From Candidatus Gastranaerophilales bacterium (GTDB lineage: Bacteria > Cyanobacteriota > Vampirovibrionia > Gastranaerophilales > Gastranaerophilaceae), in assembly GCA_944323035.1 (NCBI GenBank), contig CALUQY010000008.1:1-64000 (forward strand): a DNA stretch of 64,000 nucleotides. The letters are read 5' to 3'. The first letter of the stretch is position 1. Each line of letters begins with the position of its first letter. Shown piece after piece: positions 4,996-21,543 of the stretch. A program made the position numbers and the translations under genes. The notes under the pieces were generated by a model. That model was not told the origin of the DNA and made no database searches. It worked only from the letters and a program-made list of their open reading frames with translations.

Positions 4996-6047
4996 TGTTA
5001 GAATATTTTTTCGGGTCATATTTAGTAACGATTTTAGGCGTAATTGCGGCTTATTTCTGGGCGGAGCATTCACACCCCGGAACAGGCTGGACAAGCATTT
5101 TTATTGTATTTATACTTGCAATTCTTGAAGTCAGCCTGTCGTTTGACAACGCTGTTGTTAACGCGATGAAGTTAGAAAAAATGACTCATGTCTGGCGCCA
5201 CAGGTTTTTAACCTGGGGGATTGCAATTGCTGTTTTCGGGATGCGGTTTTTGTTCCCGATTTTAGTCGTTTCAATCTTTGCAAACCTGAGTATGGCAGAA
5301 GTCGCAAGAATTGCGGTTAATGACGCAGACAAATACGCACACTACCTTCATCTTACCCACGCCCCGATTGTATCCTTCGGCGGAATTTTCCTGCTGATGC
5401 TGTTTTTACATTACTTTTTTGATCACGAAAAAACAGTACACTGGCTGAAGCCTATTGAAAACTGGTTATCTCACCTTGACAATATCCGCGGAATAGAAGT
5501 CATTATTTCGCTTGCGGTACTTCTTGTAACCCAGAGTTTTGCGAAAACTCCGGATGTACAGCTTTCAATTATTATTGCCGGAATCAGCGGTATAATAACG
5601 TATCTTGCCGTAGACGGACTGGCACATTATCTGGAAAAGCGTGAGAAAAAAAGGCTTGCCCAATGCGCAGAAGGTGCTGTTTGCGGCGGATTTGTTGCGT
5701 TTATGTATCTTGAATTAATTGACGCATCTTTTTCGCTCGACGGAGTACTCGGCGCATTCGCACTGAGTAAGGACATCATCATCATTTCAATCGGCCTTGC
5801 AATCGGTGCGATGTTCGTCCGCTCGCTCACGGTAATGCTTGTTGAAAAAAAGACACTTGCGCAGTTCCTCTACCTTGAACACGGCGCGCACTGGGCAATT
5901 GGCGCCCTCGCTGTTATTATGCTAATTTCAACGGAAATTGAAGTTCCGGAAGTCGTAACCGGTATTATCGGATTGGTATTTATTGTACTTTCCTTGATTT
6001 CCTCAATACTTCACAATAAAAAGAAAAAATCACTTGAAAGTAATTAA
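4995..6047 (+). CDS. TerC/DUF475-type integral membrane protein
   Basis: 350 residues with eight or nine hydrophobic segments. LEVSLSFDNAVVNA near residue 50 and the internal echo YLELIDASFSLDGVLGAFA near residue 250 are the acidic metal-binding motifs of the TerC superfamily; the spacing fits the DUF475 branch. TerC relatives export metal ions such as manganese. The end is basic (HNKKKKSLESN). The last 18 bases overlap the stop end of a convergent gene of the phage-type cluster, so the cluster begins with no spacer. Confidence 0.85.
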   Translation: MLEYFFGSYLVTILGVIAAYFWAEHSHPGTGWTSIFIVFILAILEVSLSFDNAVVNAMKLEKMTHVWRHRFLTWGIAIAVFGMRFLFPILVVSIFANLSMAEVARIAVNDADKYAHYLHLTHAPIVSFGGIFLLMLFLHYFFDHEKTVHWLKPIENWLSHLDNIRGIEVIISLAVLLVTQSFAKTPDVQLSIIIAGISGIITYLAVDGLAHYLEKREKKRLAQCAEGAVCGGFVAFMYLELIDASFSLDGVLGAFALSKDIIIISIGLAIGAMFVRSLTVMLVEKKTLAQFLYLEHGAHWAIGALAVIMLISTEIEVPEVVTGIIGLVFIVLSLISSILHNKKKKSLESN

Positions 6048-6260
6048 GCAATCATAAATTTTGTCAATTTTATCTTTCATTTCGGCGACACCTTCTTTCA
6101 GCTCGTTATAGCTGTGCAGGGAAACGAAATGTTCTTCAACGCTCTCAATTATTTCTCTGTGTTTTTTCTCAAGCTGCTCCGGAGTGACAAAAATTCTGTG
6201 CTGGATTAAAAACATCATCAGCACAATTATTATAGGTGAATATTGTAAAATCTGTTCCAT
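6030..6260 (-). CDS. Small membrane-anchored coiled-coil protein of the phage cluster
   Basis: 76 residues, last gene of the cluster, not recognised. Residues 8-20 (SPIIIVLMMFLIQ) form one membrane helix. From about residue 28 to 72 the chain is charged and heptad-like (EQLEKKHREIIESVEEHF, ELKEGVAEMKDKIDKI). Position after the terminase and the topology suggest a lysis accessory protein (holin or spanin-like), but no motif proves it. Its 3' end overlaps the convergent terC-like gene by 18 bases. AAAGGAAC precedes the ATG. Confidence 0.7.
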   Translation of the reverse strand: MEQILQYSPIIIVLMMFLIQHRIFVTPEQLEKKHREIIESVEEHFVSLHSYNELKEGVAEMKDKIDKIYDCLITFK

Positions 6261-6278
6261 TTTAGTTCCTTTCGTTGG

Positions 6279-7568
6279 TTATAGCGTTATCGGCCAGTAA
6301 AAATCCACCAGATAAGAGGCCGCATCTATCGGGTGAGAAAGAAATTTCAATTCTCTCGATTGCTTTATCTGCTGATATGTGGGGATGTCAATTTTTGAAG
6401 ACCCTTCTTTATATTTCAAATTATAGATATTATAAAGAAGTTTTTCGCATTTTTTATCAACAAACAGGCAGACTTCGCCGTCAGCAGAGCGGATTTTAGC
6501 ATTAAATGCCATAATCCTGTTTTTAATCGGCGGGTTGAACGGTTTGATTTTAATATCAACATCATAACCGTATTGAAGAAGTTTCTTCTTGATTATTACG
6601 TAATTTGTGTACTCACTCGTACAGCTTCTGTTGTCGCCCGAAGCATCACCGTTCACAATAACTTTTCCTTTATGGTTCGGGTATCGTCTGTGAAACTCCT
6701 CGCAGGCTTTAGCAGTAGTCGTATTTTCCATAACAATTTCATCAAAATAAAAAACTTTATCCTCCGTCTTATGCGCCAGAACCCACGACATCGGATCTAC
6801 GTTGAAGTCGCAGGAAATATGCAAATCCAGCTCAGGCTGATATTTAATCTCCATGATGTTATCGTCTGTAAAATCCTTGATAACCAGCCCTTTATTGTAT
6901 TCTCCGTTTTGCGCCAGAACAAAAATATTATAATAATTTTCATCATAAAGTTTTTTAAGTTCTTCACAATAGCCCTCGGGCAGATAAATATTCTGCGTTG
7001 TAGGGGCTGAAATGAGTCTGTAATTTGGCGGCGGATCCTCAATAAAAGTTTTATAAACCCAGCCCCGCTGCATTTCAGGGTTAGTGTGTCCGAAAATTCT
7101 GTACTTAAAATTTTTCCAGCTTTTGCGGACTTTTTGCCGCATACGGCTCAAAAGCATTTTAAAAGTGTCGTAAGGAATATCAGACATTTCCTCAATTTCT
7201 ACAAACCCGAGGTTTAACGATTTCAACTTATTAGGCTCCTCAAAATGCCTGAATAAAATTTCCGATGAATTATGAAAAACCAGTTTTTGCAATGTCGATG
7301 ACCATTCATAATCCTTGCCTTCAACAAAACCCATATTATCAAGGTGTTCAAAATAAGTGTGCAGCGTGGTATCACGGACAAGGGTATAAGTCTGCGCTCC
7401 GACAAGCCCGCGAATTCCGGGGAATTTTAGCGCAAGCAAAATTCCGAGCAGCGAGCCGGCAAAGGTTTTGCCGGAGCCGTATCCGCCCTGATAAACCGCT
7501 ACATCTAAGCTGTATGAATGCGGGATTTCCAAAAACTCCCGCTGTGCTTTTAGTAAATTATATTCCAT
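6279..7568 (-). CDS. Phage terminase large subunit
   Basis: 429 residues, typical TerL length. The ATPase half has Walker A GGYGSGKT at residues 28-35 and Walker B VEIEE at 123-127. The C-terminal RNase H-like nuclease half carries D254 (SCDFNVD), a second acidic site in VNGDASGD near residue 310 and HPIDAASY near 420. TerL pumps DNA into the empty capsid and cuts it. All catalytic positions look intact, so the motor may work. GGAGGAG lies just ahead of the ATG and directly abuts a small GCCGGC...GCCGG hairpin, which could mask the ribosome site. Confidence 0.93.
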   Translation of the reverse strand: MEYNLLKAQREFLEIPHSYSLDVAVYQGGYGSGKTFAGSLLGILLALKFPGIRGLVGAQTYTLVRDTTLHTYFEHLDNMGFVEGKDYEWSSTLQKLVFHNSSEILFRHFEEPNKLKSLNLGFVEIEEMSDIPYDTFKMLLSRMRQKVRKSWKNFKYRIFGHTNPEMQRGWVYKTFIEDPPPNYRLISAPTTQNIYLPEGYCEELKKLYDENYYNIFVLAQNGEYNKGLVIKDFTDDNIMEIKYQPELDLHISCDFNVDPMSWVLAHKTEDKVFYFDEIVMENTTTAKACEEFHRRYPNHKGKVIVNGDASGDNRSCTSEYTNYVIIKKKLLQYGYDVDIKIKPFNPPIKNRIMAFNAKIRSADGEVCLFVDKKCEKLLYNIYNLKYKEGSSKIDIPTYQQIKQSRELKFLSHPIDAASYLVDFYWPITL

Positions 7569-7598
7569 AAATTTCTCCTCCGGCGCTCAAGCCGGCTC
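7569..7598 (-). promoter_or_regulatory. Hairpin abutting the terminase ribosome-binding site
   Basis: On the minus strand CCGGC-TTGAGC-GCCGG is followed immediately by AGGAG. The last stem bases touch the Shine-Dalgarno sequence of the terminase gene, so pairing may lower its translation. This is an inference from position only. Confidence 0.45.
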
Positions 7599-7618
7599 CG
7601 TAATCGGTTTAACAATAC

Positions 7619-7686
7619 AAAAAAAAAGCCGCTGCAAGATAGGGTAATTAAGACGAGAAGAGTTTAAAAAAGGAATAAGCAGCGGC
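7619..7686 (-). terminator. Long-loop terminator between portal and terminase genes
   Basis: On the minus strand GCCGCTGC, a 43-base loop, then the perfect complement GCAGCGGC followed by nine T. It sits 17 bases after the portal stop. It would partly insulate the terminase gene from the structural genes upstream, or form a structured RNA element. Confidence 0.7.
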
Positions 7687-7703
7687 ACTAAGAATAAGCA
7701 GAT

Positions 7704-9356
7704 TTAGTCAGTTGTACCTTTATCAAGTAAGAAGTTATTCACATTTTCAATTCCGTACTGTTCAAGCGCGAACTTAAAGCACTCAAGCCAGTCGATATTC
7801 TGCGCGATTACATCCACCTGTGCAAAAGCCTGAACGACCTCAAAGAGTTCTTTAAACCGGCTTTTACGTTCGAAAATTGCTTTTCTGTCGCCATAGCGAT
7901 AAATATAATTTGCGTTGCGGATAGAATCATCAATTTCCATAAATGAAGTTTGACCGTGTTCGTTAACAGCAATAGTTTCCTTGCCAAGTTTGAAATTTGC
8001 AATAATATCAGCCGTTTTTTCGACTGCCGGAATAATAATTTTTCTGTTAATTTCTTCCAGCAGCATATTCAAACGCGACTCCTGCCCGCTGGCAGAGTAG
8101 TTGAGTTCTGTTGCCGTGCGCGCCTGTTCCTGAATATTTCCGGACATATTTTTGAAAATACCGGTTGCACTTTCAATGGTTGTTTTAAAATAATTCAGAA
8201 AATCCCAGCCGACCATAGCTTTATCAAAATTCAGCGGCGTCGGGGTTGTAGGCATTAAAGCCGCATCATACTCAATAATTTTACCGGGACTGATATTTTG
8301 TTGACCTCTAAAACATCCCTTCGGCGCAAGATATGGCGGGTTCATGGTAAGTGCCAGCGCATCAAGCTGTTTATTCAGGATTTCAGACGAAATATCATTG
8401 AGCACAAGCGCAACTCTGATAGGCGAAATTCCGCGTCCGGTTGCAGGATTTTCAATAATATTTGCGTGAATAAACGGGTTTATTACGAACGGGTTGCTTT
8501 CAAAGCGTATAATATGCTTTCTGCCGGCAACGGTTATAAACCAGTTTTTCAAAAGTTTTCCGTTTCTAAGTTCTATATCCCCGAGGAATTCAAAAACCTC
8601 AATCTTGTTATTATCAAAAGAGGTCGGTCTTTTGCTGTTTTTTGCCACCACTCCCTTCAAATCTTCCAGCTTTAACTCGTTAAGATAATTGTTTGCCTTG
8701 TCCGAACGGATTTCATCAAGGGTCTTAAAGGTTCTGTAAATCTTCGAGCAACTGTCCCAGTTATCCGCATCGTACTTATCAAAAACAAAATCTTCCGGAT
8801 GAATATACTTAATTTTTGCGTTATCATAGACGACTTTTTCTTCAATAACAAAGCCTTTATTAGTAAAATCCAGCATTTTTTCTTCAAAAGTCTGGGCACG
8901 GCGCGTACGTTTAACCCGTGTTTCCCAGCCGACAAAAAGCGTTGCCTCACCCGCTTCAACAATACCGTTGACTATTTTTTCAAGTTCGGATTCAAAATCC
9001 ATCTCTTCAAAGGTTTTAACAAGCATAGCTTTTTGTTTATTTGCAAACGCTTGCGACTCTTGATCGGTTCCTGAAACATCAAACATAGTTTCAGGGTGAG
9101 AATAAACATTCTGCGTAATATGAGCCTTGAGTGTCTGCGCAAGTTCATACATATTCGGCAGCTCAACTTTAGAATCCCATGCCCCTCTGACAGGTGATTT
9201 TATCTCATAAATTGCATTTCTCACCGCCGCGAGATCTGATATTTGCGAACTTCTTGTACTTTCATAGTTATCAAATTTTCTTGTAATTCTGTCTACAAGA
9301 TGACTTTCTTCCAATTCATCAATCTGAATTGTTAAATCTTCCATTTCTAATTGCAT
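7704..9356 (-). CDS. Portal (head-tail connector) protein
   Basis: 550 residues, within the range for podovirus-type portals. The sequence has the features of the P22/T7-like portal class: an acidic N terminus, VRNAIYEI...VKSPVRGAWDS-type opening, FVDKYDADNW-like segment FVFDKYDADNWDSCSK, long central ENPATGRGISPIRVALVLNDISSEILNKQLDALAL helix region (seen near residues 305-345) and an Ala/Gln-rich wing before residue 430. It forms the dodecameric DNA gate that docks the terminase. AAGGAGGGG precedes the ATG; the start overlaps the end of the acetyltransferase gene by ten bases. Assignment rests on size, context and general pattern. Confidence 0.8.
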   Translation of the reverse strand: MQLEMEDLTIQIDELEESHLVDRITRKFDNYESTRSSQISDLAAVRNAIYEIKSPVRGAWDSKVELPNMYELAQTLKAHITQNVYSHPETMFDVSGTDQESQAFANKQKAMLVKTFEEMDFESELEKIVNGIVEAGEATLFVGWETRVKRTRRAQTFEEKMLDFTNKGFVIEEKVVYDNAKIKYIHPEDFVFDKYDADNWDSCSKIYRTFKTLDEIRSDKANNYLNELKLEDLKGVVAKNSKRPTSFDNNKIEVFEFLGDIELRNGKLLKNWFITVAGRKHIIRFESNPFVINPFIHANIIENPATGRGISPIRVALVLNDISSEILNKQLDALALTMNPPYLAPKGCFRGQQNISPGKIIEYDAALMPTTPTPLNFDKAMVGWDFLNYFKTTIESATGIFKNMSGNIQEQARTATELNYSASGQESRLNMLLEEINRKIIIPAVEKTADIIANFKLGKETIAVNEHGQTSFMEIDDSIRNANYIYRYGDRKAIFERKSRFKELFEVVQAFAQVDVIAQNIDWLECFKFALEQYGIENVNNFLLDKGTTD

Positions 9357-9871
9357 AGCCCCTCCTTAAGGTTGTGTTCACGGAACACAGAATAAATTTC
9401 GATATCCTGTAATCGGTTATTTTTTCTTGTTTCGGCTTTTAAAAGTGCTTCGCGTCTGAATCCGCATACTCTCAAGATTGCTTTAACTCTTGAATTTTGC
9501 GGATATACAAGCGCCTTAATCTTAGTCAGCCCGAGTACGTCAAAGCAAAAATCCTGAAAATTTCTTGCTGCGTATTTAGTGAAAACGCCCCAGTATTTCC
9601 GGTTAAAGCAGGTGATAACCTCTGCGGAATGAATTTTGTTTTCAGAACCTATGAGGTGTTCCAGACAAAAGAAGCCACAAACCTCATCATCTGCCAGCAC
9701 AAGATAAAAATGCGGCGTTATTCTCTCAATAGTTTCAACCATTCCTTCAAGCGAACGCTCAGAGAACAGCGAAAAATCGTCCTCCAAATTACGCAAGTAT
9801 TTTATGTAGAGTTTCATAACCTGCGGAAAGTATTTAATATTATGAAACAGTCCGGCCTTACGGTTAATCAT
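9347..9871 (-). CDS. GNAT-family acetyltransferase of the phage cluster
   Basis: About 174 residues from the ATG at 9871; an ATG at 9904 is an alternative and the longer frame to 10015 lies inside the preceding gene. The C-terminal half shows the GNAT pattern: LVLADDEVCGFFCLEHL (beta strands), YWGVFTKYAARNFQDFCF (acetyl-CoA-binding helix) and LGLTKIKALVYPQNSRVKAILRVCGF. Acetyltransferases of this kind accompany portal genes in several podovirus-like and GTA-like clusters, where they may modify virion proteins or the host surface. Substrate unknown. Confidence 0.75.
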   Translation of the reverse strand: MINRKAGLFHNIKYFPQVMKLYIKYLRNLEDDFSLFSERSLEGMVETIERITPHFYLVLADDEVCGFFCLEHLIGSENKIHSAEVITCFNRKYWGVFTKYAARNFQDFCFDVLGLTKIKALVYPQNSRVKAILRVCGFRREALLKAETRKNNRLQDIEIYSVFREHNLKEGLCN

Positions 9872-9884
9872 AATTCTTTCAAAT

Positions 9885-10250
9885 CTAAACTGTTGTCTTT
9901 GCATACATAAATTCCACATAAGAATCGCCCGCGATAAAGGCGTTGATTTTACCTGCAAGCAAAGCAGCTCTGACAGTTTCCTGCATTCCGAGCATAGCCT
10001 CTGCCTGAACACCATTCACAAGGCTTTCAGTCCCGTTAATTTTGTTAAAAACCTTAAAAACACTTGATTTAGAAAAAAGAAGATTTTTCGGAACTTCCGA
10101 AATATTTTCAAATTTTCTGACTTTAGGAATATTTTTTGCTTTTTCCTGAAGGGTTTTATAGTCTTGCTGAATTTTCATCTGAATAAGTTCATCAATAGAC
10201 TTGCCCGTCAAAAGCATTTTTTCAACATCTGAATTATTAATATCTTTCAT
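9885..10250 (-). CDS. Uncharacterised protein of the phage cluster
   Basis: 121 residues, not recognised. An acidic-basic helical N terminus (VEKMLLTGKSIDELIQMKIQQDYKTLQEK) is followed by a shorter folded part ending INAFIAGDSYVEFMY. There is no signal peptide or membrane helix. It lies between the small terminase and the acetyltransferase, and AAAGGTAAAAT precedes its ATG. By position it could be a packaging or connector accessory factor. Confidence 0.7.
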   Translation of the reverse strand: MKDINNSDVEKMLLTGKSIDELIQMKIQQDYKTLQEKAKNIPKVRKFENISEVPKNLLFSKSSVFKVFNKINGTESLVNGVQAEAMLGMQETVRAALLAGKINAFIAGDSYVEFMYAKTTV

Positions 10251-10266
10251 ATTTTACCTTTCTTTT

Positions 10267-10701
10267 TTAGAGTTTATTTTCATCCAGATTGGATATTGTT
10301 ATAATTTTTGCGTCCTTGTAAGAGTCCTCCTGAGAGAGTCCGAACCCGAGATGTTTGCAGAGATTTTCAAGGGCTTTTAAGCCTGTCGAGGTATCTCTTA
10401 GCTTACGTTTACCAGTAAGCGAGCCGTCTTTATCCAAAATATCCTCTTCTTCGAGCGAAAACTCTATGATTTGTAAAAGCTTTTGAACAATATAGCCTTT
10501 TTCAACGCGCAGAGAGGGTATTCTGGAGAGAAGTTCCCCTTGCATAGCTTTAATAATTTTCTTATCGGAGAGCATTTTGTTAGCGAGTTCTTTAAGATTA
10601 TTATTTTTGTAGCCTGCATAGCGGCAGGCAGCCTCACCGTCAAGAGTTTTGATATATTCTTCAATAAACTTTTTCTGTTGAATTGTAACGTTTTTCATCA
10701 T
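10267..10701 (-). CDS. Phage terminase small subunit
   Basis: About 144 residues from the double ATG near 10701. The longer frame to 10761 would run over an opposing promoter and has no ribosome site. The N-terminal QQKKFIEEYIKTLDGEAACRYAGYKN matches the Terminase_2 DNA-binding helix-turn-helix; LSDKKIIKAM follows, then a helical oligomerisation region and a short acidic tail. It recognises DNA for packaging and activates the large subunit. In GTAs this subunit is often changed to allow non-specific packaging; the sequence alone does not settle that here. Confidence 0.85.
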   Translation of the reverse strand: MMKNVTIQQKKFIEEYIKTLDGEAACRYAGYKNNNLKELANKMLSDKKIIKAMQGELLSRIPSLRVEKGYIVQKLLQIIEFSLEEEDILDKDGSLTGKRKLRDTSTGLKALENLCKHLGFGLSQEDSYKDAKIITISNLDENKL

Positions 10702-10726
10702 TTTTATTTCAATTTCTTTACATAAT

Positions 10727-10755
10727 TTGATATTTTTCCGAATAAGTAGTATAAT
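10727..10755 (+). promoter_or_regulatory. Consensus sigma-70 promoter opposing the phage cluster
   Basis: TTGATA (10727-10732), 17 bases, TATAAT (10750-10755). It points to the right, against every gene of the cluster. Transcription would start near 10762 and meet the terminator at 10792-10823. Confidence 0.8.
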
Positions 10756-10760
10756 GAACA

Positions 10761-10823
10761 TGCTATTTATATTTCGGCTAGTGTAAATCTTAACAGGGGG
10801 AATACAAACTTCCTGTTTTTTTT
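10761..10823 (+). ncRNA. Predicted ~60-nt antisense small RNA
   Basis: Bounded by the consensus promoter at 10727-10755 and by a stem AACAGGGGG/CTTCCTGTT (10792-10800 with 10809-10817) plus a T run. It contains only an eight-codon frame without a ribosome site (ATG at 10760). The transcript is complementary to the leader of the small terminase message if that is read from upstream. It could control expression of the packaging half of the cluster. Not matched to any known RNA family by eye. Confidence 0.6.
10792..10823 (+). terminator. Intrinsic terminator of the antisense RNA
   Basis: Stem of up to nine pairs with two G-U pairs, 8-base loop, then eight T in a row including the stem end. The T run is only on the plus strand, so it serves the opposing transcript. 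Confidence 0.8.
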
Positions 10824-10983
10824 ATGCGCCGAGCGAAGCCACGAAGATTGCGGAGCAATCGTAGAGTCGAGCGTGCGACGGCCAAAACCGCGTTCTTGGC
10901 TGCAAACGCGAGCAGTGGCGTTCATCGCGAGGCGCAAAGGCTTTGCCCGATGTGTAGCGCCGGTGCAGAGGCAGACATCCTGC
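10824..10983. repeat. GC-rich insertion between connector and small terminase genes
   Basis: About 160 bases much richer in GC than the neighbouring genes, with small inverted repeats such as GATTGCGGAGCAATC and GGCTTTGCCC. It resembles the R1/R2 elements in composition but I cannot align it to them. It holds no credible gene; an open frame on the plus strand across it has no ribosome site. Confidence 0.5.
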
Positions 10984-11628
10984 TTACGATCTACGTAACC
11001 TCACAACCGGTTCAAACCCTGAATCAATAGAACAGCGCGAAACCATGTTTGCCAGCGCATCTTTATACATACTTACCCAGTAGTTAAAACGTATGTGCTG
11101 CGGATTTCCTTTCAGCCGCATACAGGTGCCGAAAACCAGAATCGGTTCAACAAACGGCATCGGTATCGCAGAAGAATCTGTTTCCTCAGTAAGCGACGAT
11201 TTTTCCTCACCTGCGGCATTAAGCGCACTGTTGTATGTATAATAGATTACCTCCACGCTCTTATCTTCATCAAAAGTTTTGGCGAAGATAATTTTGCCGT
11301 CATAGCCTGAATAAAGATTTTTACCTTTGACTTTACGGTTAATAATATCAGAAGCGTTTTCATAGTAGTGAAACTCATGTGAATCAATAAGCAGCTGCGA
11401 AATTCTGCCGTTTATTGTATTATCAATTTCATTCATGCCGGCAGGCAGAGTGAGTACGGTTTTTCGCAAAAGAAAATTCCATTTTGCATACTGGCAGACT
11501 TCCGAATTTAGAACGTTAAGAATGTTCATTATTTTCTTGTGCTCATTTTTGGTAAGTTCCGCGAAATTATTAACCTGTTTGTAATTAAGTTCAACCAGAC
11601 ATTTATTTATAATTTCTAAAAAGTTCAT
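10984..11628 (-). CDS. Probable head-completion / tail-connector protein
   Basis: 214 residues from the ATG at 11628, which has AAAGGAG at good spacing; the longer frame lacks one. The N-terminal half is helical (EIINKCLVELNYKQV, NILNVLNSEVCQYAKWNFLLRK). Then come strands containing LTLPAGMNEIDN, YSGYDGKIIFAK and VEVIYYTYNSALN, and a C-terminal helix pair. This arrangement is like the P22 gp4 / gp10-type adaptor that sits under the portal. Recognition is by pattern and context, so the exact role is uncertain. The end lies next to the GC-rich insertion, which may have altered the final residues (RLRRS). Confidence 0.65.
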   Translation of the reverse strand: MNFLEIINKCLVELNYKQVNNFAELTKNEHKKIMNILNVLNSEVCQYAKWNFLLRKTVLTLPAGMNEIDNTINGRISQLLIDSHEFHYYENASDIINRKVKGKNLYSGYDGKIIFAKTFDEDKSVEVIYYTYNSALNAAGEEKSSLTEETDSSAIPMPFVEPILVFGTCMRLKGNPQHIRFNYWVSMYKDALANMVSRCSIDSGFEPVVRLRRS

Positions 11629-11695
11629 AATTACTCCTTTAACATCTGTGAAGCCAGAGGGGAAAAATCCCCTCAAAACCTCACAAAAGAATTTA

Positions 11696-12361
11696 CTATT
11701 TAATCAGGCCCTTGCGGAGCTGGTCCATAATGGCAGCTTCATATTTAGTAAATTCATCACCACTCATTTTGCCGATTTGAGCACGGGTAAAAACCCTGTT
11801 GTTATCGGAAGGATTAGAGCTTTGCGCATTGGCGGTAAGTCTAAGCTTCGCGATATTGTTTTCGTCATTTAATGTTTTTCCGTACTCTTCTTTTTTCAAA
11901 TATCTTTCCACAGCACTCTGTTCAAGAGCTTCAATGAGTTTAGATATTTGCAAGAGTTCATCTTTGTCAAAATTCACGGGTGAATTTTTCAGATAATTCA
12001 GGACATCCGAGCGCCCTGCCTGATTAAAGAAATCAGGGTTAAGCGCGGCGAATTGTGCGAATGCATCCGTTGAAGGAGTAGTATTGCCGGACAAAGCAGA
12101 CTCATGTTGTTGTGTAGTAACATCTGTGTATGCATTTTTAATAACCTGTTTCATTAAATTTTGTCCTTGTTCACGGTCTACAAGTCCCATAGCCATTAGT
12201 GCACGAATGGCCGCGAGGTCATTTGCGACTAATTTTTCAACCCGTTCCTGCGCAGAAGCAATATTTTGCCCGTTGTTATCTGTTGGAGTAACACGCGGAT
12301 TTTGAGTCACGGCATTCAATGAATCCCTTGATAAATTTTTATTTTTTTCCTGTTCGTTCAT
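11696..12361 (-). CDS. Probable capsid scaffolding protein
   Basis: 221 residues, hydrophilic and rich in Asn, Gln and Ala, without cysteines or membrane helices. The N-terminal third looks disordered. The C terminus FTRAQIGKMSGDEFTKYEAAIMDQLRKG follows the 'tRxqIgkMs..EF.k....I...l..G.I' pattern common at the end of phage scaffold proteins. It lies two genes from the coat gene. It would direct coat assembly and leave before DNA packaging. Start supported by GAGGT ahead of the ATG, only three bases after the preceding stop. Confidence 0.7.
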   Translation of the reverse strand: MNEQEKNKNLSRDSLNAVTQNPRVTPTDNNGQNIASAQERVEKLVANDLAAIRALMAMGLVDREQGQNLMKQVIKNAYTDVTTQQHESALSGNTTPSTDAFAQFAALNPDFFNQAGRSDVLNYLKNSPVNFDKDELLQISKLIEALEQSAVERYLKKEEYGKTLNDENNIAKLRLTANAQSSNPSDNNRVFTRAQIGKMSGDEFTKYEAAIMDQLRKGLIK

Positions 12362-12364
12362 TTG

Positions 12365-12622
12365 TTATACCTCAATTACATCTTGAATATCGTCGCGGTG
12401 ATTCATATATGCAACCGCGATTTCGACAGCACTGTCAATAAATACAGAGAGCACAAACCCGAGAATAAATTTCAGATAAGACGGCACCGGCAGATTTGCG
12501 ACAACATATTTTATTGCTGCAATCTTTTTATTTTTGCCTTCTTCTCCGTTTAGTTCTTCCTCAACCTGCATAACAGCACTTTTTGCGAGTTCAAGAATCT
12601 TATTTTTTAAACTGTCAAACAT
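12365..12622 (-). CDS. Small holin-like protein
   Basis: 85 residues from the ATG at 12622 (CAGGTG upstream); a GTG at 12631 is an alternative. The first 30 residues are charged and helical, GEEGKNKKIAAIKYVVANLP follows, then a hydrophobic helix YLKFILGFVLSVFIDSAVEIAVAYMNH. The GKxKK...VE..V..LN pattern recalls the LLH-type holin-like family, but a place between coat and scaffold genes is unusual for a holin. A virion-associated role is equally possible. It overlaps the coat stop by a few bases depending on the start. Confidence 0.6.
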   Translation of the reverse strand: MFDSLKNKILELAKSAVMQVEEELNGEEGKNKKIAAIKYVVANLPVPSYLKFILGFVLSVFIDSAVEIAVAYMNHRDDIQDVIEV

Positions 12623-12623
12623 A

Positions 12624-13508
12624 CTACGCACCTGCCGTTACAACCATTTTAGCCAGCGCTTTCGGCTGAACAGTCTTAGCACCGTAGAGATAAAGACCTC
12701 TGACAAGATCAGAGAAGGAATCTTTATCACGTAAAGTTTCAATTTTAGCGAGCTGTGATGCGAACGTAATCGCTTCGTTAGTACCGGCAAGGATGTAGTA
12801 TTTATCATCAGTATCAGTAAGGTTTGTACTTACAAGAACATCCATGCCTGCAATTCTTCCGATTGCACCTTCTCTAAGTGTTTGGTCAGCAACATTGTGC
12901 GCACCGATAAATTCAGAACTTTGAAGCAGGTAAGATTCAACCAGCGGATTAATAACAACCCACGGACGCTGACCGCCGCTTACGGCATCAGAATTTTTCA
13001 ATTTCATTGCAAGTTCAACAAAATATTTGTAAATAGTAGTTTTATCCAGTGACACAGGAGAAGCATCGCTGCCGACAGTGTTATCTGTAGTAACGTTTGT
13101 ATGCTGTGACAAAAGATAAGCATCCTGAACCTGTTCAATAGCTCTTCTTGCGTTTTCAAGATGTGCTTCCATAATGCTTGTGTTAGCCTGAACAGCCGCA
13201 ATATCATTGATTTTAAAGGCAAAGAATTTTTGCTGGTCAATAACCAATTCCTGAGAGGTCGGTTCAAGTTCATCATAAGTTATAGCGGAAGTTCCAAGAG
13301 TAGAAATTGCAACCTGTGCAGGAGTGATAATTTTTACCTTATCGCCCTGAGCAGCGATTTCGCCCTCATAGTTTCTGTTAACACATTGGAGCATAACGCA
13401 TTTTTTCTCTAACATTGTTGACAGTTTTTTACTCCATATTTCAGGAATAAAAGCAGCGTAAGAGTTTGCTGCCGGAGCAGCAGAAGTTGTTGGTGTGTTT
13501 TCTGACAT
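12624..13508 (-). CDS. Major capsid (coat) protein
   Basis: 294 residues from the ATG at 13508 with AAAGGGAAAG upstream. A flexible Ala/Pro/Ser N terminus is followed by FIPEIWSKKLSTMLEK, an opening typical of P22-type and related HK97-fold coats. DKVKIITPAQVAISTL, LVIDQQKFFAFKINDI and HLENARRAIEQVQDAYLLS mark the E-loop, P-domain and spine helix. GRIAGMDVLVSTNL and the end VQPKALAKMVV complete the A-domain. It should form the icosahedral shell. No truncation is visible. Confidence 0.88.
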   Translation of the reverse strand: MSENTPTTSAAPAANSYAAFIPEIWSKKLSTMLEKKCVMLQCVNRNYEGEIAAQGDKVKIITPAQVAISTLGTSAITYDELEPTSQELVIDQQKFFAFKINDIAAVQANTSIMEAHLENARRAIEQVQDAYLLSQHTNVTTDNTVGSDASPVSLDKTTIYKYFVELAMKLKNSDAVSGGQRPWVVINPLVESYLLQSSEFIGAHNVADQTLREGAIGRIAGMDVLVSTNLTDTDDKYYILAGTNEAITFASQLAKIETLRDKDSFSDLVRGLYLYGAKTVQPKALAKMVVTAGA

Positions 13509-13568
13509 TTTCACTTTCCCTTTCGTTTAACTAGTGTAGTAATATAAATAATGAGTGGTGGTGTTTAA

Positions 13569-15095
13569 TTAATATGCGTCGTCAAAAATTTCTCTGAATT
13601 GTAAGCCTATAATTCCACAGTTGTGATAGGCTTCACTCCCTTCGATACATATTTGAACCGCATAATTGCTTTCGGAAATTTCCGCCTTTTCCAGCGTTTC
13701 CGAATTAACAGACCAGATAGGAATACGGGCTTCATCTTCCCCCCATTTACACGGCAGACTCTCTGGTGTTGTTTCATCTGCCCATAATAAATGGTCATAG
13801 TTTATATTATGTATAACTTCTTTATCATCCGGATATCCGGTATCAAAATTTTTATACACAGAAAAGTTAAAATTATTATCATATTCGCAGTCAAGTACAA
13901 AATAAAATTCATCAATAACTTTTCTGTGATGAGCGTCTTTCAGCACCAGAAAAGGAGATTTCCACATAAAATCAACAGGCTGTCCGCAAAAATCACGTCC
14001 GAAATCTTCTATATAAATCTTTCCGGCATCATCATAAGTAAGGACATTTCCCTTGAACATACACGCACCCAGAACATTCTGCGGAACAACACGCTTGTAC
14101 CAGAGTTTCAGTACGTAATCATTAATCCAGATTGTTTTAAAGTATGCCTCATCAGTATAAGGCATAAAATACCACATTTGATTACGCTTTTCATAATGCA
14201 GACAAATGCTTTCAGATAACCTTGAGGTATCCAGCAAATCAAATTCCGGCTTAATTTTCAACGAAATCTCGGAACCGACATGGATTTGCATCAAAACTCC
14301 GGCCTCCTCAAGCGAAAATATTCCGCTGTCGGAGAGGAAAAATTGCCTGTTATCAACATTAACAAGAGAACGATGTGCCTTTGTACCTTTATCCGCAAAA
14401 AGCTGGATTGAAAAATCCTCCGGAGAACTTCCGCTCAAAAGGTAAACCTGATTTTTCTTATAAATCGCCAGATAATCCTTGTACTCTCCAATACCAGTAA
14501 TAACATCCGTATTGGTGTGGAAATCATTTATATAACCGGCGTCTTTTTCTTCCGTAAAATTATCATAAGTACCGAGCGCTGAATAATAAATTGTCGAATC
14601 TTTAGCGACCCAAACCCGTCCGCGATATGTTGTAATAAGTCCGCCGGTCAAATCGTTTCCGGATAAATTTTTCAAATTACAATCAACGACAGTGTAATCT
14701 TCGTCATTTTTAACATAACGCATCTTATCAGCTTCAGTCATAATCAAAAACCCGTTTAAAAAGTTTCTGAATACCGGTTTAACTCCGCTAAGAGTCAAAT
14801 CAAGCGTTTTTAGCTCCTCTTCAGCCTCATCATAGATATAAACTTTTCCGCTGACTGTTGTTATTACAAGTTTATAAGAATCCTGATGTGTAAACTGATG
14901 CAGTCCGGTTATTTCTTCCTTATCAGTAAGTTCCAGATAAACAGCATTGCCCTGCTGTCTTTTAATTCCATTGGTATTAAGGAGTTCAATATTTTTTGAA
15001 TCAGCCCAGTACATACGCTTTGTATCAAGCCCCATTTCTGTCTTTGATAAACTCTGGTTAATACCTCCGGATAAGTTGTAAAAAGCAATCTCCAT
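13569..15095 (-). CDS. Beta-propeller-like virion structural protein
   Basis: 508 residues with many regularly spaced short strands ending in aromatic residues (KLVITTVSGKVYIYDE, GRVWVAKDSTIYYSALG, YLAIYKKNQVYLLSGSS), suggesting a beta-propeller. The opening FYNLSGGINQSLSKTEMGL...WADSKNIEL is typical of podovirus tail-stabilising or tail-hub proteins (P22 gp10-like position). It is encoded just upstream of the coat gene. No tail-fibre or spike domain is present, so if particles form, receptor binding must come from elsewhere. GGGGGAT precedes the ATG. Confidence 0.7.
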   Translation of the reverse strand: MEIAFYNLSGGINQSLSKTEMGLDTKRMYWADSKNIELLNTNGIKRQQGNAVYLELTDKEEITGLHQFTHQDSYKLVITTVSGKVYIYDEAEEELKTLDLTLSGVKPVFRNFLNGFLIMTEADKMRYVKNDEDYTVVDCNLKNLSGNDLTGGLITTYRGRVWVAKDSTIYYSALGTYDNFTEEKDAGYINDFHTNTDVITGIGEYKDYLAIYKKNQVYLLSGSSPEDFSIQLFADKGTKAHRSLVNVDNRQFFLSDSGIFSLEEAGVLMQIHVGSEISLKIKPEFDLLDTSRLSESICLHYEKRNQMWYFMPYTDEAYFKTIWINDYVLKLWYKRVVPQNVLGACMFKGNVLTYDDAGKIYIEDFGRDFCGQPVDFMWKSPFLVLKDAHHRKVIDEFYFVLDCEYDNNFNFSVYKNFDTGYPDDKEVIHNINYDHLLWADETTPESLPCKWGEDEARIPIWSVNSETLEKAEISESNYAVQICIEGSEAYHNCGIIGLQFREIFDDAY

Positions 15096-15127
15096 TTTTT
15101 CAATCCCCCAAGATAAAGTTAATATAA

Positions 15128-15187
15128 TAAAGCAGTTTCCCGCCGCGGGTTGAGCTGCAGGAGCAGGTCAATACGCGGCGACACCGG
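15128..15187. repeat. R2 repeat element, partial copy a
   Basis: AATAAAGCAGTTTCCCGCCGCGGG...GAGCAGG matches the tail end of the R2 family (AAAGCAG..CTCCGCC...GAGCAGG) but lacks the co-varying hairpin arm. It fills the gap between the amidase and propeller genes. Confidence 0.55.
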
Positions 15188-15676
15188 CTATAAATTTTCC
15201 AGATACCACCGTACTTTTGAACGTATAAAACTTCCGGCTTCATCCCTTTTAACCCACGGATACGGCGGGATAAAAACAATATCTATTTTGCCGAAACTTG
15301 TCGTCTTTGGATGTGCCTGCCCGAATTCATAGTGAGTCATAAGAGTGTCAGTCCCTAAAGGAATGCCGTACTTCTTTAAAAGTTCTGCACACAATTTCAT
15401 TGTTCTTTCAAATTGAACAGGCGTAATCGGATAATCTCCGGCATTATGTTCATTTTTAAATCCCAGCATTGCACACATTGACACCCCTATTGAACCCGTG
15501 TTGCCGCCGCCGGTGTGCATAGCATAGCTATTACCTCTACACACCTCATTGTCCTCAACTTTAAATTTTCCTTCATAAATTTCGCCATCAGCCCCGACTA
15601 AATAATGATAATGTTCCAGATCACAATGGTTTGGCTGATATTTTCCGGCTGTCCAGTGTAAAATTATTCGTTTCAT
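15188..15676 (-). CDS. N-acetylmuramoyl-L-alanine amidase (phage-type endolysin)
   Basis: 162 residues, one Amidase_2 (T7 lysozyme/PGRP-like) domain. It cleaves between muramic acid and the stem peptide. Probable zinc ligands are H7 (ILHWTAG), H115 (MTHYEFG) and an acidic residue in GKIDI near 132; MHTGGGNTGSIGVS is the usual core strand. There is no signal peptide or cell-wall-binding domain, so it would need a holin. Its ATG overlaps the stop of the HTH gene by four bases (ATGA), showing translational coupling. It is transcribed second, unlike most phage lysis genes, which come late. Confidence 0.9.
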   Translation of the reverse strand: MKRIILHWTAGKYQPNHCDLEHYHYLVGADGEIYEGKFKVEDNEVCRGNSYAMHTGGGNTGSIGVSMCAMLGFKNEHNAGDYPITPVQFERTMKLCAELLKKYGIPLGTDTLMTHYEFGQAHPKTTSFGKIDIVFIPPYPWVKRDEAGSFIRSKVRWYLENL

Positions 15677-15906
15677 AAAACCTCTTTACTATCGCGCAAT
15701 ATTTGCATAAACTCCTCGGGAGCAATTTCTATTAAGCATTTAAACGCAGCATTTATCTTGTTTCTGGCAGCTAACTTTAACGTTGCTCTATCAATATAAG
15801 TCCTCACGGTGTAATAACTAAGATTCATCTTGTCAGCTACCTCTCTGTCGCTATATCCCAAGGCAATATAGACGAGAACCATTATTTCCTGCGATGATAA
15901 CTTCAT
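15673..15906 (-). CDS. LuxR/GerE-type HTH regulator heading the phage cluster
   Basis: 77 residues consisting almost only of a LuxR-like helix-turn-helix: LSSQEIMVLVYIALGYSDREVADKMNLSYYTVRTYIDRATLKL, then a short helical tail. No receiver or ligand domain is present. AAAGAGGTAG precedes the ATG. Being first in the operon, it is the only candidate regulator of the cluster and may act on the repeat-rich region upstream (15907-16180). Host-type rather than CI-type control would fit a domesticated element. Confidence 0.85.
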   Translation of the reverse strand: MKLSSQEIMVLVYIALGYSDREVADKMNLSYYTVRTYIDRATLKLAARNKINAAFKCLIEIAPEEFMQILRDSKEVL

Positions 15907-15981: not shown

Positions 15982-16011
15982 AAAAAAATGAGGATTTCAT
16001 AGAAATCCTCA
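15982..16011 (-). terminator. Terminator upstream of the phage cluster
   Basis: On the minus strand a perfect ten-pair stem TGAGGATTTC/GAAATCCTCA with a 3-base loop is followed by seven T. It lies 76 bases upstream of the HTH gene and in the same direction. It therefore ends a short transcript from the 16.0-16.2 kb region, or acts as an attenuator that must be overcome to express the cluster. Confidence 0.8.
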
Positions 16012-16031
16012 CGTTAAGATAATCGGATTTT

Positions 16032-16178
16032 ATATGAAAAATTTGTCTCCCAAGTTCTACTGTCAATTTGCATTCGATATTTGTAGTATATACGATATGA
16101 AAAATTTGAAAAGTCGCCAATTTTGTTGACCCAAATTTATGTCAACATATTTATGTAGCCAAATTTGGGGACTTGACA
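16032..16178. promoter_or_regulatory. Repeat-rich control region of the phage cluster
   Basis: The 324-base gap 15907-16230 holds no gene. It contains the direct repeat ATATGAAAAATTTG twice (near 16032 and 16095), the dyad GTTGAC-N10-GTCAAC (near 16126-16147) and several CCAAATTT units. These look like operator sites. A minus-strand TATACT near 16088 with a weak -35 could start a transcript ending at the terminator at 15982-16011. Confidence 0.5.
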
Positions 16179-16230: not shown

Positions 16231-19200
16231 TTATGCCAATTTTGTGTCCATAGACTTCACATTGACATCAATTCTGCCGGAGAATTTTGCCTTAAGCGTA
16301 TTCACAAGGTCATTTGAGGAGTTAACCCAGCAGCTTGAATTGGATAAAATTTTGACTGTTCCGGTCGAATCTTTAAGCGTTACCGTCACAGGATCAGATC
16401 CGGCATGTTCGGTTAAGAAACTTTTTAAATACATCAATTCCTCAAATTTAAAATCATCAAGAAGAATAATATTAAAGATGTTGGAATTTTCAATAGTTTT
16501 AACGCTGTCAACAACAAGAGAAGGTGCCTCATCCTCTTCGCGGCGGTTAACTTTTCCGGATACAATAACACGCTGTTCCGGTTCCAGCAGGCTGTCAAAC
16601 TCCATTAGTTTTCTATGGAAACAAATCACATCAATCTTGCCTGAAAGATCTTCAACCGTCACAAATTTAAGGAACTTTGTAGGATCTTTTTTAGTCGGAA
16701 TTTTCTTGACTGCCGTAATCAACCCGCAGATTGTAACCGGTTTATCGTTTGGAAGTTCAGCAAGTTCCGTAATTTTATGTGTCATCAAAAACGGCAATTT
16801 ATCCCTGATTGTCTGAAGCGGGTGGCTCGTGACATAAAATCCTAAAAATTCTTTTTCAAAATTTTGTATCTGGCGCGCGTCAAACTCCTCATCGCTTCCT
16901 GCAAGCTGAAATTTCATATCATCAACAACGGAGGAATCGCCAAGCATATCAAATAAGCTGCCCTGACCGGATTCTTTTGCCTTTGCCTCTTTAGAAGCCG
17001 TATTTGTAATATAGTCAATATTTTCCCATAGCTGCTTACGACTCTTTTCAATAGTCGAAAACGCACCGGATTTAATCAAACCTTCAAGAGTTTTCTTGTT
17101 GGAACATTTTGAGTCAAGACGTTTGATATAATCATAGATAGATTTAAAAGGCCCGTTAGCATCCCGCTCTGCAATAATACATTCAATAACGGCTTCACCC
17201 ACCTGCTTAATTGAAGCAAGCCCGAAACGAATATTACCGTTATCCGGCGTGAAGGATGCCATTGAGTGGTTAATATCCGGCGGAAGAACTTTTATACCTT
17301 TCTTCTGCGCCTCTTCTATGTAAAGCTGTGTTTTTTCCTGATCGCTTGAAACACTTGATAAAAGCGCAGAAAGATATTCAACAGGGTAGTGGCATTTCAG
17401 ATAAGCCGTCTGATAAGCAACAAACGCATACGCAGCAGAGTGCGACCGGTTAAAGCAGTAAGAAGCAAACGCAAGAATTTGGTTGAATAAAGCAGTCGCA
17501 TCCGCCGCACTCATCCCGTGTGCTGCAGAACGCTCAATGAACTTGGTTTTTTGTTTTTCCATTTCATCGACTTTTTTCTTACCCATCATACGACGAACCA
17601 TGTCCGCTTGCCCGAGAGTATAATCAGCAAGCACCTGAAACACCTGCATGATTTGTTCCTGATAAACAATAGTTCCGTAAGTATCTTTAAGAACTGGCTC
17701 AAGAAGCGGGTGGGCATAAGAGATTTCCTGACGGCCGTGTTTTCTTTCAACGAAGTCGTCAACCATGCCGGAATCAAGCGGCCCCGGTCTGAAAAGTGCC
17801 ACCAGCGCGCCCAAATCTTCAAAAACGTCCGGTTTAAGACGTTTGACAAGGTTTTTCATGCCTTGAGATTCCAGCTGAAAAACGCCGTCCGTATCGCCCG
17901 TCATAAGCATGTCATAAACAGGTTTGTCATCCAGTGGAATATCATTAATTGCAAGTTCAATTCCCTGCTGCTGCTTGATTAAATCGACTGTTTTATAAAT
18001 AGTCGTAAGGTTGCGCAGCCCCAGAAAGTCCATTTTCAAAAGGCTTAAAACTTCTGTAACGTCATGCGGCGGATAGCCGGTCTGTACAATTCCGTCTTTT
18101 GACGGCTGAATAGGCAGGATTTCATCCAGCGGAACCCTCGAAATAATAACGCCCGCCGCATGGGTACCGGTATTATTTTTGATTCCTTCAATCCCGATTG
18201 CAAGGTCAACAATCTTTTTAACCCCGACGGTTTTCCCGTCCCCCGGATCGCCGCATGGCAGCTGCTCATCGTTCTTGTACATCGTTTTTAATTCCGAGCC
18301 GTCGACCTGCATAGCATCTTTCAGGGTTTTTGCTTTAGGATTTGTTGCCTGTGCAAGTTCAATTGCAGGCTCGATAAGAGAAGCCAGCTTGTTACTTTCC
18401 GAAAACGGAACTTTTAATATACGGCAAATACCTTTCAACGCAGCTTTTGCCGCATAAGTACCAAACGTAATAATCTGACAGACTTTATCTTCACCGTATT
18501 TTTGCGTAACGTAATCAATAACTTCCCCGCGGCGCTCAATACAGAAGTCAATATCAATATCGGGCATGGTGAAACGTTCAGGATTCAAAAAACGTTCAAA
18601 CAATAATTTGTGCTTAATCGGGTCAAGATCGGTGATTTCAAGAGCATACGCAACAAGCGAACCCGCTGCCGAGCCTCTGCCCGGGCCGACCGGAATTCCG
18701 TGCGATTTTGCATAATAAATAAAATCCCACGTAATCAAAAAGTATGCAGCAAAACCCATCTGGTTAATAACACTTAATTCATAATCCGCACGTTCTTTAA
18801 GCTCTGGCGTAACTTCGCCGTAGCGTTTTTTAATCCCCTCAAAGACAAGGTGTTCCAAATAAGATTCAATAGTATAGCCTTCCGGAACCTGATAGTGAGG
18901 AAGCGGACTTTTCCCGAGTTCCAGCGTCAAATGACATTTTTCGGCAATATCAACCGTATTTTTAATGCATTCGTTAAACGTATCCTCGTCCATCCACTTG
19001 AAAAATGTTCTCAATTGTTCCGGTGTTTTAACGTAAAATTCGTTATTCGGAAAATGGAAACGGTTAGGATCGTCTTTATCACTGTTTGTCTGCATACAAA
19101 GAAGGGTGTCATGCATATCCGCATCATCACGCGTTAGATAGTGCGAGTCATTTGTAATAACCATTTTAATCCCGAGTTCTTTAGCGATTTGGACGAGTTC

Positions 19201-19761
19201 AGGGTTGGTGCGTTTTTGCTCTTCTAAACCGTGATCCTGCAGCTCAATATAGTAATCCTCGCCAAACAAATCTTTGTATTGCTGTGCAACTTCGCGGGCT
19301 TTAACCTTATCATTTTTCAGCAGATTTTGCAGCACCTCACCGCCCAGACAAGCAGAAAGACAAATAAGCCCTTTGTGGTGTTCCTTCAACAATTCCCAGT
19401 TTATACGCGGGTGAACGTAGCGGCCTTTACACCATGCAACAGAAACCAGTTTTAATAAATTCGCATAACCTTCCTTATCCTTTGCAAGCAAGACTAAGTG
19501 ATAACAAGGGTTATGCGCCTTATCGCGTTCTGAGATATCACCGTCATGTACATAAAATTCGCAGCCTAAAATCGGTTTAACGCCTTTTTCTTTAGCTGTA
19601 GTATAAAGTTCCATATCGCCGTACATAACCCCGTGGTCTGTCAGCGCGACCGCCGGCATGTTGTTTTCTTTGGCGAAATTCACCAGATCATCAATTCTTA
19701 TGGCCCCGTCAAGCAGTGAATACTCACTGTGGATATGTAATGGTACATACTGCATGCTCAT
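16231..19761 (-). CDS. dnaE: DNA polymerase III alpha subunit
   Basis: 1176 residues, the usual DnaE length. An N-terminal PHP domain opens with HIHSEYSLLDGAIRI. The polymerase catalytic aspartates are D401 and D403 (MPDIDIDF); GRGSAAGSLVAYAL precedes them. HhH and fingers regions follow, and an OB fold near residues 1000-1070 (VTICGLITAVKKIPTKKDPT) completes the enzyme. It is the replicative polymerase and belongs to the DnaE1 rather than PolC class. There is no obvious ribosome site before the start MSMQ; a TATAAT (minus strand, 19769-19774) lies ten bases upstream, so the message may be nearly leaderless. Confidence 0.97.
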   Translation of the reverse strand: MSMQYVPLHIHSEYSLLDGAIRIDDLVNFAKENNMPAVALTDHGVMYGDMELYTTAKEKGVKPILGCEFYVHDGDISERDKAHNPCYHLVLLAKDKEGYANLLKLVSVAWCKGRYVHPRINWELLKEHHKGLICLSACLGGEVLQNLLKNDKVKAREVAQQYKDLFGEDYYIELQDHGLEEQKRTNPELVQIAKELGIKMVITNDSHYLTRDDADMHDTLLCMQTNSDKDDPNRFHFPNNEFYVKTPEQLRTFFKWMDEDTFNECIKNTVDIAEKCHLTLELGKSPLPHYQVPEGYTIESYLEHLVFEGIKKRYGEVTPELKERADYELSVINQMGFAAYFLITWDFIYYAKSHGIPVGPGRGSAAGSLVAYALEITDLDPIKHKLLFERFLNPERFTMPDIDIDFCIERRGEVIDYVTQKYGEDKVCQIITFGTYAAKAALKGICRILKVPFSESNKLASLIEPAIELAQATNPKAKTLKDAMQVDGSELKTMYKNDEQLPCGDPGDGKTVGVKKIVDLAIGIEGIKNNTGTHAAGVIISRVPLDEILPIQPSKDGIVQTGYPPHDVTEVLSLLKMDFLGLRNLTTIYKTVDLIKQQQGIELAINDIPLDDKPVYDMLMTGDTDGVFQLESQGMKNLVKRLKPDVFEDLGALVALFRPGPLDSGMVDDFVERKHGRQEISYAHPLLEPVLKDTYGTIVYQEQIMQVFQVLADYTLGQADMVRRMMGKKKVDEMEKQKTKFIERSAAHGMSAADATALFNQILAFASYCFNRSHSAAYAFVAYQTAYLKCHYPVEYLSALLSSVSSDQEKTQLYIEEAQKKGIKVLPPDINHSMASFTPDNGNIRFGLASIKQVGEAVIECIIAERDANGPFKSIYDYIKRLDSKCSNKKTLEGLIKSGAFSTIEKSRKQLWENIDYITNTASKEAKAKESGQGSLFDMLGDSSVVDDMKFQLAGSDEEFDARQIQNFEKEFLGFYVTSHPLQTIRDKLPFLMTHKITELAELPNDKPVTICGLITAVKKIPTKKDPTKFLKFVTVEDLSGKIDVICFHRKLMEFDSLLEPEQRVIVSGKVNRREEDEAPSLVVDSVKTIENSNIFNIILLDDFKFEELMYLKSFLTEHAGSDPVTVTLKDSTGTVKILSNSSCWVNSSNDLVNTLKAKFSGRIDVNVKSMDTKLA

Positions 19762-21392: not shown

Positions 21393-21442
21393 TTTTCCAT
21401 CCTTTCTTTTTGTTCCGTTGGGCTGGAAAGCCCAAACTACTT

Positions 21443-21543
21443 TATCATAAGGCAATAGGTCATTAGGACAATAAGACTATTCTTTTTTCTTCCATTTGGC
21501 CATTACGACTTATTGCCTCATTGCCTTATTTACTTATTGCCTC
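21443..21543. repeat. Cassette 5' UTR repeats, copy B
   Basis: AAGGCAATAGGTCATTAGGACAATAAG faces inverted CTTATTGCCTCATTGCC units across a conserved CCATTTGGCCATTACGAC segment, as in copy A. Confidence 0.7.

Follow-up and report, generated by a model that had tools for sequence, protein, structure and literature searches.

Gastranaerophilales carry a domesticated particle operon of podovirus origin that is probably a gene transfer agent

To our knowledge, few gene transfer agents (GTAs) have been described, and nearly all of them come from Alphaproteobacteria. By described gene content, the closest known system to the one reported here is FpGTA of Faecalibacterium, a podovirus-like GTA of the gut with an operon I of ~10.5 kb, which lacks replication genes and is conserved across the genus, and whose particles and packaged DNA of 8.4-8.9 kb have been demonstrated (PMC12946183). 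In this study, a block of genes has been analyzed at positions 6030-15906 (minus strand) of the first 64,000 nucleotides of contig CALUQY010000008.1 (assembly GCA_944323035.1), from a Candidatus Gastranaerophilales bacterium; this whole stretch is referred to as the window. The block is inherited with the host, is under purifying selection and is fixed in the chromosome, and its genes for the head, the packaging motor, a short tail and lysis are intact. We consider it probable that the Gastranaerophilales have domesticated a particle operon of podovirus origin in this block, most likely as a GTA.

The block consists of 13 intact and co-directional genes, separated mostly by tiny gaps and preceded by a leader. 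Its features, starting from the leader, are the following (HTH, helix-turn-helix; TerS and TerL, small and large terminase subunits):

16085..16112, minus strand: promoter-like sequence TTTTCA-16-TATACT, conserved in 6/6 genomes of the genus examined
15988..16012, minus strand: hairpin resembling an intrinsic terminator (from the sequence), in the leader, 5' of the LuxR-type gene
15673..15906, minus strand: LuxR/GerE-type HTH-only protein of 77 amino acids, gene 1 of the operon (PF00196, 5.6e-11)
15188..15676, minus strand: N-acetylmuramoyl-L-alanine amidase, an endolysin (Amidase_2 PF01510, 7e-16)
13569..15095, minus strand: beta-propeller tail nozzle of the P22 gp10 / T7 gp12 type (PHROG matches, AlphaFold/Foldseek)
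12624..13514, minus strand: major capsid (coat) protein (phrog_267, 1.9e-52)
12365..12631, minus strand: holin-like small protein (weak LLH-holin and PHROG holin matches)
11696..12361, minus strand: probable scaffolding protein (position and conserved C-terminal motif)
10984..11628, minus strand: portal-tail adaptor of the T7 gp11 type (AlphaFold and Foldseek; phrog_6013)
10267..10701, minus strand: TerS with an N-terminal HTH (Terminase_2 PF03592, 1.2e-11)
9885..10250, minus strand: protein of 121 amino acids, conserved in its position in the cluster, with no family match
9347..9877, minus strand: GNAT acetyltransferase (PF13302, 4e-7), present in most relatives
7704..9356, minus strand: podovirus-type portal protein (SU10_portal PF23899, 2.3e-15; phrog_332, 7e-35)
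6279..7568, minus strand: TerL (Terminase_3 PF04466, 1.1e-19; PHROG TerL, 3e-33; TIGR01547)
6030..6260, minus strand: holin/spanin-like protein of 76 amino acids with one transmembrane segment and a coiled coil (sequence; conserved position)

All the genes named in an initial annotation of the window, including the LuxR/GerE-type gene at the head of the block, were recovered with open frames by family searches and fold comparison; the GNAT acetyltransferase and the 121-amino-acid gene were missing from its list. The proteins that it called connector-like and propeller are the podovirus adaptor and the tail nozzle. For these two tail genes, alignments of 31 sequences and AlphaFold models were built. 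The nozzle model, with a mean predicted local distance difference test score (pLDDT) of 83, matches in Foldseek the Pa223 tail (E 1e-17) and P22 gp10 (1e-14), with a template modelling score of 0.74, while the adaptor model (mean pLDDT 92) matches cyanophage A4 (5.7e-9), SU10 and T7 gp11. Sequence searches of the PDB with the portal and the nozzle were uninformative, and fold comparison alone placed the tail proteins. The scaffold candidate holds a variable N terminus and a conserved C-terminal motif (FTRxQIGKMSGxEF..IMxQLRKGLIK), and it adjoins the coat gene in the order found in genera g18 and g27; scaffolding is its probable role, judging from position and motif.

Packaging and lysis look functional, since the GGxGSGKT motif, the IEE Walker B and the nuclease residues D254 and D308 of TerL are kept in at least 95% of 33 relatives, and H7, H24, H54 and H115 of the amidase in at least 95% of 34 relatives (alignment). 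The open reading frame (ORF) of TerS extends to 10761, and its start was set by relatives of 142-147 amino acids. The LuxR-type gene keeps its place in most related clusters, and the 3' end of the gene for the 76-amino-acid membrane protein overlaps terC by 18 bp. Base composition is host-like, with a mean GC content at third codon positions of 0.376 in the block and 0.392 in 15 neighbour genes. In agreement with the initial annotation, searches of Pfam and PHROG families revealed no integrase, repressor or replication genes within the block; defence-system models gave nothing notable. A short repeat (10828..10937) between the TerS and adaptor genes shares ~80% identity with seven or more further sites of the genome.

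When the coat protein was searched in 383 genomes of the order Gastranaerophilales (E<=1e-3), matches appeared in 213 of them, ~157 strong (E<=1e-49) and 56 weak and distant. The strong matches are nearly all single-copy, and none of the matches listed shows an internal stop. Coat identity reaches 81-100% within the genus (full matches), ~71-82% in most of the family and 42-64% in deeper lineages, and one relative, G091, is near-identical. The cluster is carried by about 150 species of Gastranaerophilales, which are non-photosynthetic gut cyanobacteria. Regions of at most 20 kb surrounding the coat gene were compared from 39 genomes, together with 68 TerL loci from GTDB contigs, with some overlap between both sets. 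The order of the 13 genes is strictly kept in 31 loci, and in most of the remaining ones the deviation is limited to one or two genes that are small or were missed, or to contig ends; in g18 and g27 almost the same genes appear in a different order.

The initial annotation had placed the block as locked between terC and dnaE. This holds inside the genus of the window, where both sides are found in G000, G091, G046 and G014, but not for every member, as G126 conserves only the terC side and G209 neither. It does not define the position of the cluster, as other genera use other conserved sites, and the flanks group into a small number of types. In g2, g3, g7, g9, g10 and g11, a ZIP transporter, a radical SAM protein and c13 form the left flank and c14 the right one, while in g6 dxr and a histidine kinase stand opposite CorC. 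In some loci of other genera terC is encountered just past c14, so the right-hand flank may be ancestral. Neither c13 nor c14 was retained as part of the cluster: the former, a small upstream protein of other genera, was discarded as an essential member because it is absent from the cluster in genus g1, and the latter, a large downstream gene of many genera, has no family match and was judged a neighbour. Tyrosine recombinases are present in 30/30 genomes examined; among the matches listed in these genomes, no integrase lies at the cluster, and the nearest recombinase is ~20 kb from the coat gene (in G065) and is by appearance an Xer-type core gene.

Inheritance was assessed by comparing a tree of seven concatenated cluster proteins with that of rpoB as the host marker. 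Both trees have 12/24 splits in common, versus a mean of 0.19 and a maximum of 2 after shuffling, and their distances are correlated (Mantel r 0.88; 0.91 for TerL). Every multi-species genus is monophyletic in the cluster tree, although the deep branching is not resolved, because rpoB, with a mean distance of 6% within the family, carries little signal there. Selection was estimated as the ratio of nonsynonymous to synonymous substitution rates (dN/dS) by pairwise Nei-Gojobori; the ratios are approximate, as many dS values are near saturation. Those of the core genes are low (TerL 0.006-0.045, portal 0.014-0.09, coat 0.02-0.06, TerS 0.005-0.11, nozzle ~0.04-0.1) and close to those of the control genes dnaE (0.009-0.027), terC (0.03-0.05) and miaB (~0.035); higher values were obtained for the scaffold (0.08-0.24) and the LuxR-type HTH (0.07-0.42). 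The purifying selection that the initial annotation had proposed to look for is thus observed, with core ratios of ~0.005-0.1. Host-congruent trees, low dN/dS and single intact copies argue for its proposal of a domesticated, host-inherited block and not a prophage. The outcomes that it had named as contrary to this proposal did not appear, as in relatives the block is neither scattered over random sites with integrases nor part of phage-sized genomes, and it shows no decay.

The neighbouring gene dnaE (window 16231-19761; loci L079-L108) behaves differently, since it matches rpoB more poorly than the cluster does (9/23 splits, r 0.79). Its tree is incongruent, since members of the genus of the window are split over a pair of distant dnaE clades, and in genome G318 the gene is present twice. 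It seems that dnaE has been exchanged between genera, and it was dropped as a host marker in favour of rpoB because it is mixed among genera. Further on, at 19974-21455, there is a pilin-like ORF that varies in size between genomes and whose N-terminal part resembles translated repeat DNA (CHAELVSAS-type motifs). The gene dprA, which the initial annotation had invoked for the uptake of packaged DNA, does lie ~8 kb off (23989-25128), but its proximity is uninformative, because comEC is present in 14/14 genomes tested, including eight without the cluster. A linkage to DprA and competence was therefore rejected as support.

Regarding control, the promoter-like sequence upstream of the LuxR-type gene occurs once in the window, versus 0.01 occurrences expected, and it is followed by the terminator-like hairpin. 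The location of this hairpin is kept between genera, while the sequence of its stem differs. In genera carrying c13, the hairpin is mostly found 18-31 nt past the c13 stop and may simply be the c13 terminator; in the genus of the window, c13 is absent from the locus and the hairpin is nevertheless kept. By analogy with CcGTA, where a terminator is bypassed with GafZ in Caulobacter (PMC11150451), we infer that the operon could be controlled by read-through of the leader terminator.

The cluster also appears in viral catalogues. In IMG/VR, 32/32 contigs bearing the coat gene (L137-L168) carry cluster genes, and those that are long enough show host flanks (terC/miaB, ZIP/rSAM/c13, c14, CorC). These contigs are pieces of host chromosome, and viral catalogues are contaminated by the cluster. 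Among cultivated-phage records, the best TerL match reaches ~30% identity, and the best coat match (42%) is MW495066.1, 'Microcystis phage MaAM05' (PhiMa05; L284, L299-L303, L282). This record is a locus of the type found in family f9 of the same class, where a related cluster encodes portal, scaffold, coat, adaptor, nozzle and a tail-fibre-like protein (L247-L250, L282). No homologue of the TerL of the window was found in the f9 genomes tested. In three g77-type loci the f9 cluster is adjacent to lepA, and in g54 it has a lepA homologue at its flank; it may represent another domesticated particle of this class. As for MW495066.1, 262.6 of its 273.9 kb are colinear with a bacterial contig (G425:C2:207429-479864) at 85% nucleotide identity, it encodes rpoD, smc, topA, secDF, five aminoacyl-tRNA ligases and tRNAs, and its sole phage-like module is the captive capsid cluster. 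In a 2026 paper, MaAM05 is described as a jumbo cyanophage with ribosomal proteins, and the Vampirovibrio copies are read as prophages (PMC13157829). A simpler reading than a jumbo phage is a fragment of bacterial chromosome in which a capsid cluster is held captive, and the claim about ribosomal proteins probably rests on such a fragment.

The International Committee on Taxonomy of Viruses (ICTV) defines GTAs as viriforms by six features (PMC9662315). Three of them are properties of particles, namely that mostly random host DNA is encapsidated, that the head is too small for the agent's own genes and that DNA is delivered to other cells. The other three, the genomic half of the definition, are observed in the locus: its structural proteins are Caudoviricete-derived (family searches, Foldseek); it is fully endogenised, with host-gene flanks, no integrase among the matches listed and IMG/VR copies that are chromosomal; and its inheritance is mostly vertical with codiversification, according to the trees and distances of rpoB and the cluster and to dN/dS. 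As a GTA, the operon would be turned on by a host signal in a subset of cells with the help of the LuxR-type HTH, possibly past the leader terminator. Portal, scaffold and coat would build a procapsid, TerS and TerL would load it with chromosomal DNA, and adaptor and nozzle would seal the filled head. Amidase and holins would then lyse the cell, and the particles would bring host DNA to related cells; a tail fibre and ejection proteins, if required, would be encoded elsewhere. Packaging may prefer certain sites, as TerS keeps its N-terminal HTH. The more ambitious proposal, to which we give about an even chance, is that the ancestor of most Gastranaerophilaceae acquired, in a single event, a functional GTA of the podovirus type, which selection has maintained while the genera diversified, and which packages perhaps with site preference through its HTH-bearing TerS and moves genes among host-associated gut cyanobacteria, being the first GTA in Cyanobacteriota. 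A literature search, which was not exhaustive, yielded no paper in which GTAs are connected with Gastranaerophilales or Melainabacteria; if the block is a GTA, it is probably the first found in this phylum.

Several observations weigh against a GTA. Particle formation, packaging and transfer are predictions from the genes. It has been proposed that a GTA-type TerS lacks an N-terminal sequence-specific DNA-binding domain (PMC6854486), and here the Terminase_2 match spans an N-terminal HTH whose residues are conserved. Neither a tail fibre nor an ejection protein was identified in the block, and the tail-fibre-like gene of f9 used as a query had no match in Gastranaerophilales. Genera g4, g13 and g17 lack the cluster in the genomes checked. 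In g11, the nozzle was not found anywhere in 6/6 genomes checked, while the remaining genes TerL, coat and portal are under purifying selection (TerL dN/dS 0.015), so that in this genus the selected function may be other than DNA injection. Together, the nozzle loss, the missing receptor-binding and ejection proteins and the genera without the cluster are compatible with a role that is not DNA delivery.

The nozzle loss and the missing receptor-binding and ejection proteins favour the strongest alternative, although we regard it as unlikely: a domesticated particle with another job, such as PBSX-like killing or a lysis or public-goods device, whose DNA content would be incidental. The TerL of the block is also nearest to a PBSX-type model (TIGR01547, 6.8e-25, under the model cut-off). 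However, TerL, TerS and portal are among the most conserved proteins (dN/dS 0.005-0.1), an indication that selection acts on DNA packaging, and contractile or bacteriocin-like tail genes are lacking. Distinctly less probable is a small self-packaging element (a capsid-forming satellite or mini-phage) that is still horizontally mobile. A size of ~10 kb suits a small head, TerS could recognise its own pac site through its DNA-binding-type N terminus, and the same hosts contain genuine podovirus prophages whose TerL belongs to the same group. Nevertheless, trees follow the host, copies are single, and sites are conserved within and between genera. The integrase and replication module that accompany capsid genes in satellites of the capsid-forming phage-inducible chromosomal island type are absent, and host genes flank the block.

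We give very little credit to recurrent capture, in which close phages would repeatedly integrate at hot spots and mimic vertical descent. At least three site types exist, and phage relatives of TerL (55-63% identical) were found in prophage-type loci G091:C1 (L244/L245) and G146:C7 (L246) and in IMG/VR contigs of 36-42 kb (55-61% for the latter). The hosts of the prophage-like loci have the fixed cluster as well, and one of these loci lies near an ORF of 3025 amino acids. Against such capture, these phage TerLs fall outside the cluster clade in a tree whose deep nodes are poorly supported (43-69%), genera are monophyletic, and the searches returned no free copy of the block. The TerL of IMGVR279, with a very long branch, falls inside the weakly supported base of this tree. 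Loci L237-L243 (g14, g28, g15), with a TerL ~57-60% identical, a larger and different arrangement and a very divergent coat, may be prophages or another fixed cluster. Finally, an ordinary or decaying prophage remnant, as a first-pass annotation would call a block whose structural genes are all phage-derived, is the least probable reading and already largely refuted by intact frames in ~150 species, low dN/dS, host codivergence and conserved neighbours, the block showing none of the integrase, replication genes, attachment (att) sites and varied insertion sites of active prophages.

If the GTA reading is true, a short-tailed phage was domesticated independently in a gut lineage of which very few members have been cultured, and ~150 species together with the age of the cluster would allow testing what maintains such 'selfless' particles. 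Clusters of this kind also lead IMG/VR and GenBank to list pieces of host chromosome as viruses, including a 'jumbo phage with ribosomal proteins'.

Compared with known systems, the podovirus prophages of Gastranaerophilales (G091:C1, G146:C7 and the 36-42 kb contigs) share related TerL, coat, portal and nozzle with the block, but differ in the rest of their gene content, with large extra genes. PBSX is a contractile-tailed killing particle; PBSX-type defective phages resemble the block in the sub-threshold TIGR01547 score of its TerL, whereas the block has no contractile tail genes. FpGTA, compared by description, shares with it a gut anaerobe as host and the set of TerS, TerL, portal, scaffold, coat and short tail. 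It belongs to another phylum, its TerS has no obvious DNA-binding domain, unlike the HTH-bearing one of the block, and its tail fibre, receptor-binding and lysis genes are in a second operon, whereas the block holds its lysis genes in the main operon and has no second operon known. FpGTA particles have been shown, while the block is known here from its genes. RcGTA and CcGTA (Rhodogtaviriformidae) hold a siphovirus-type tail and different regulators, and random packaging and transfer have been proven for them. Like these two, the block is a vertically inherited chromosomal cluster with apparent host control and an intact packaging motor, and its leader terminator recalls the one that is bypassed with GafZ in CcGTA (PMC11150451).

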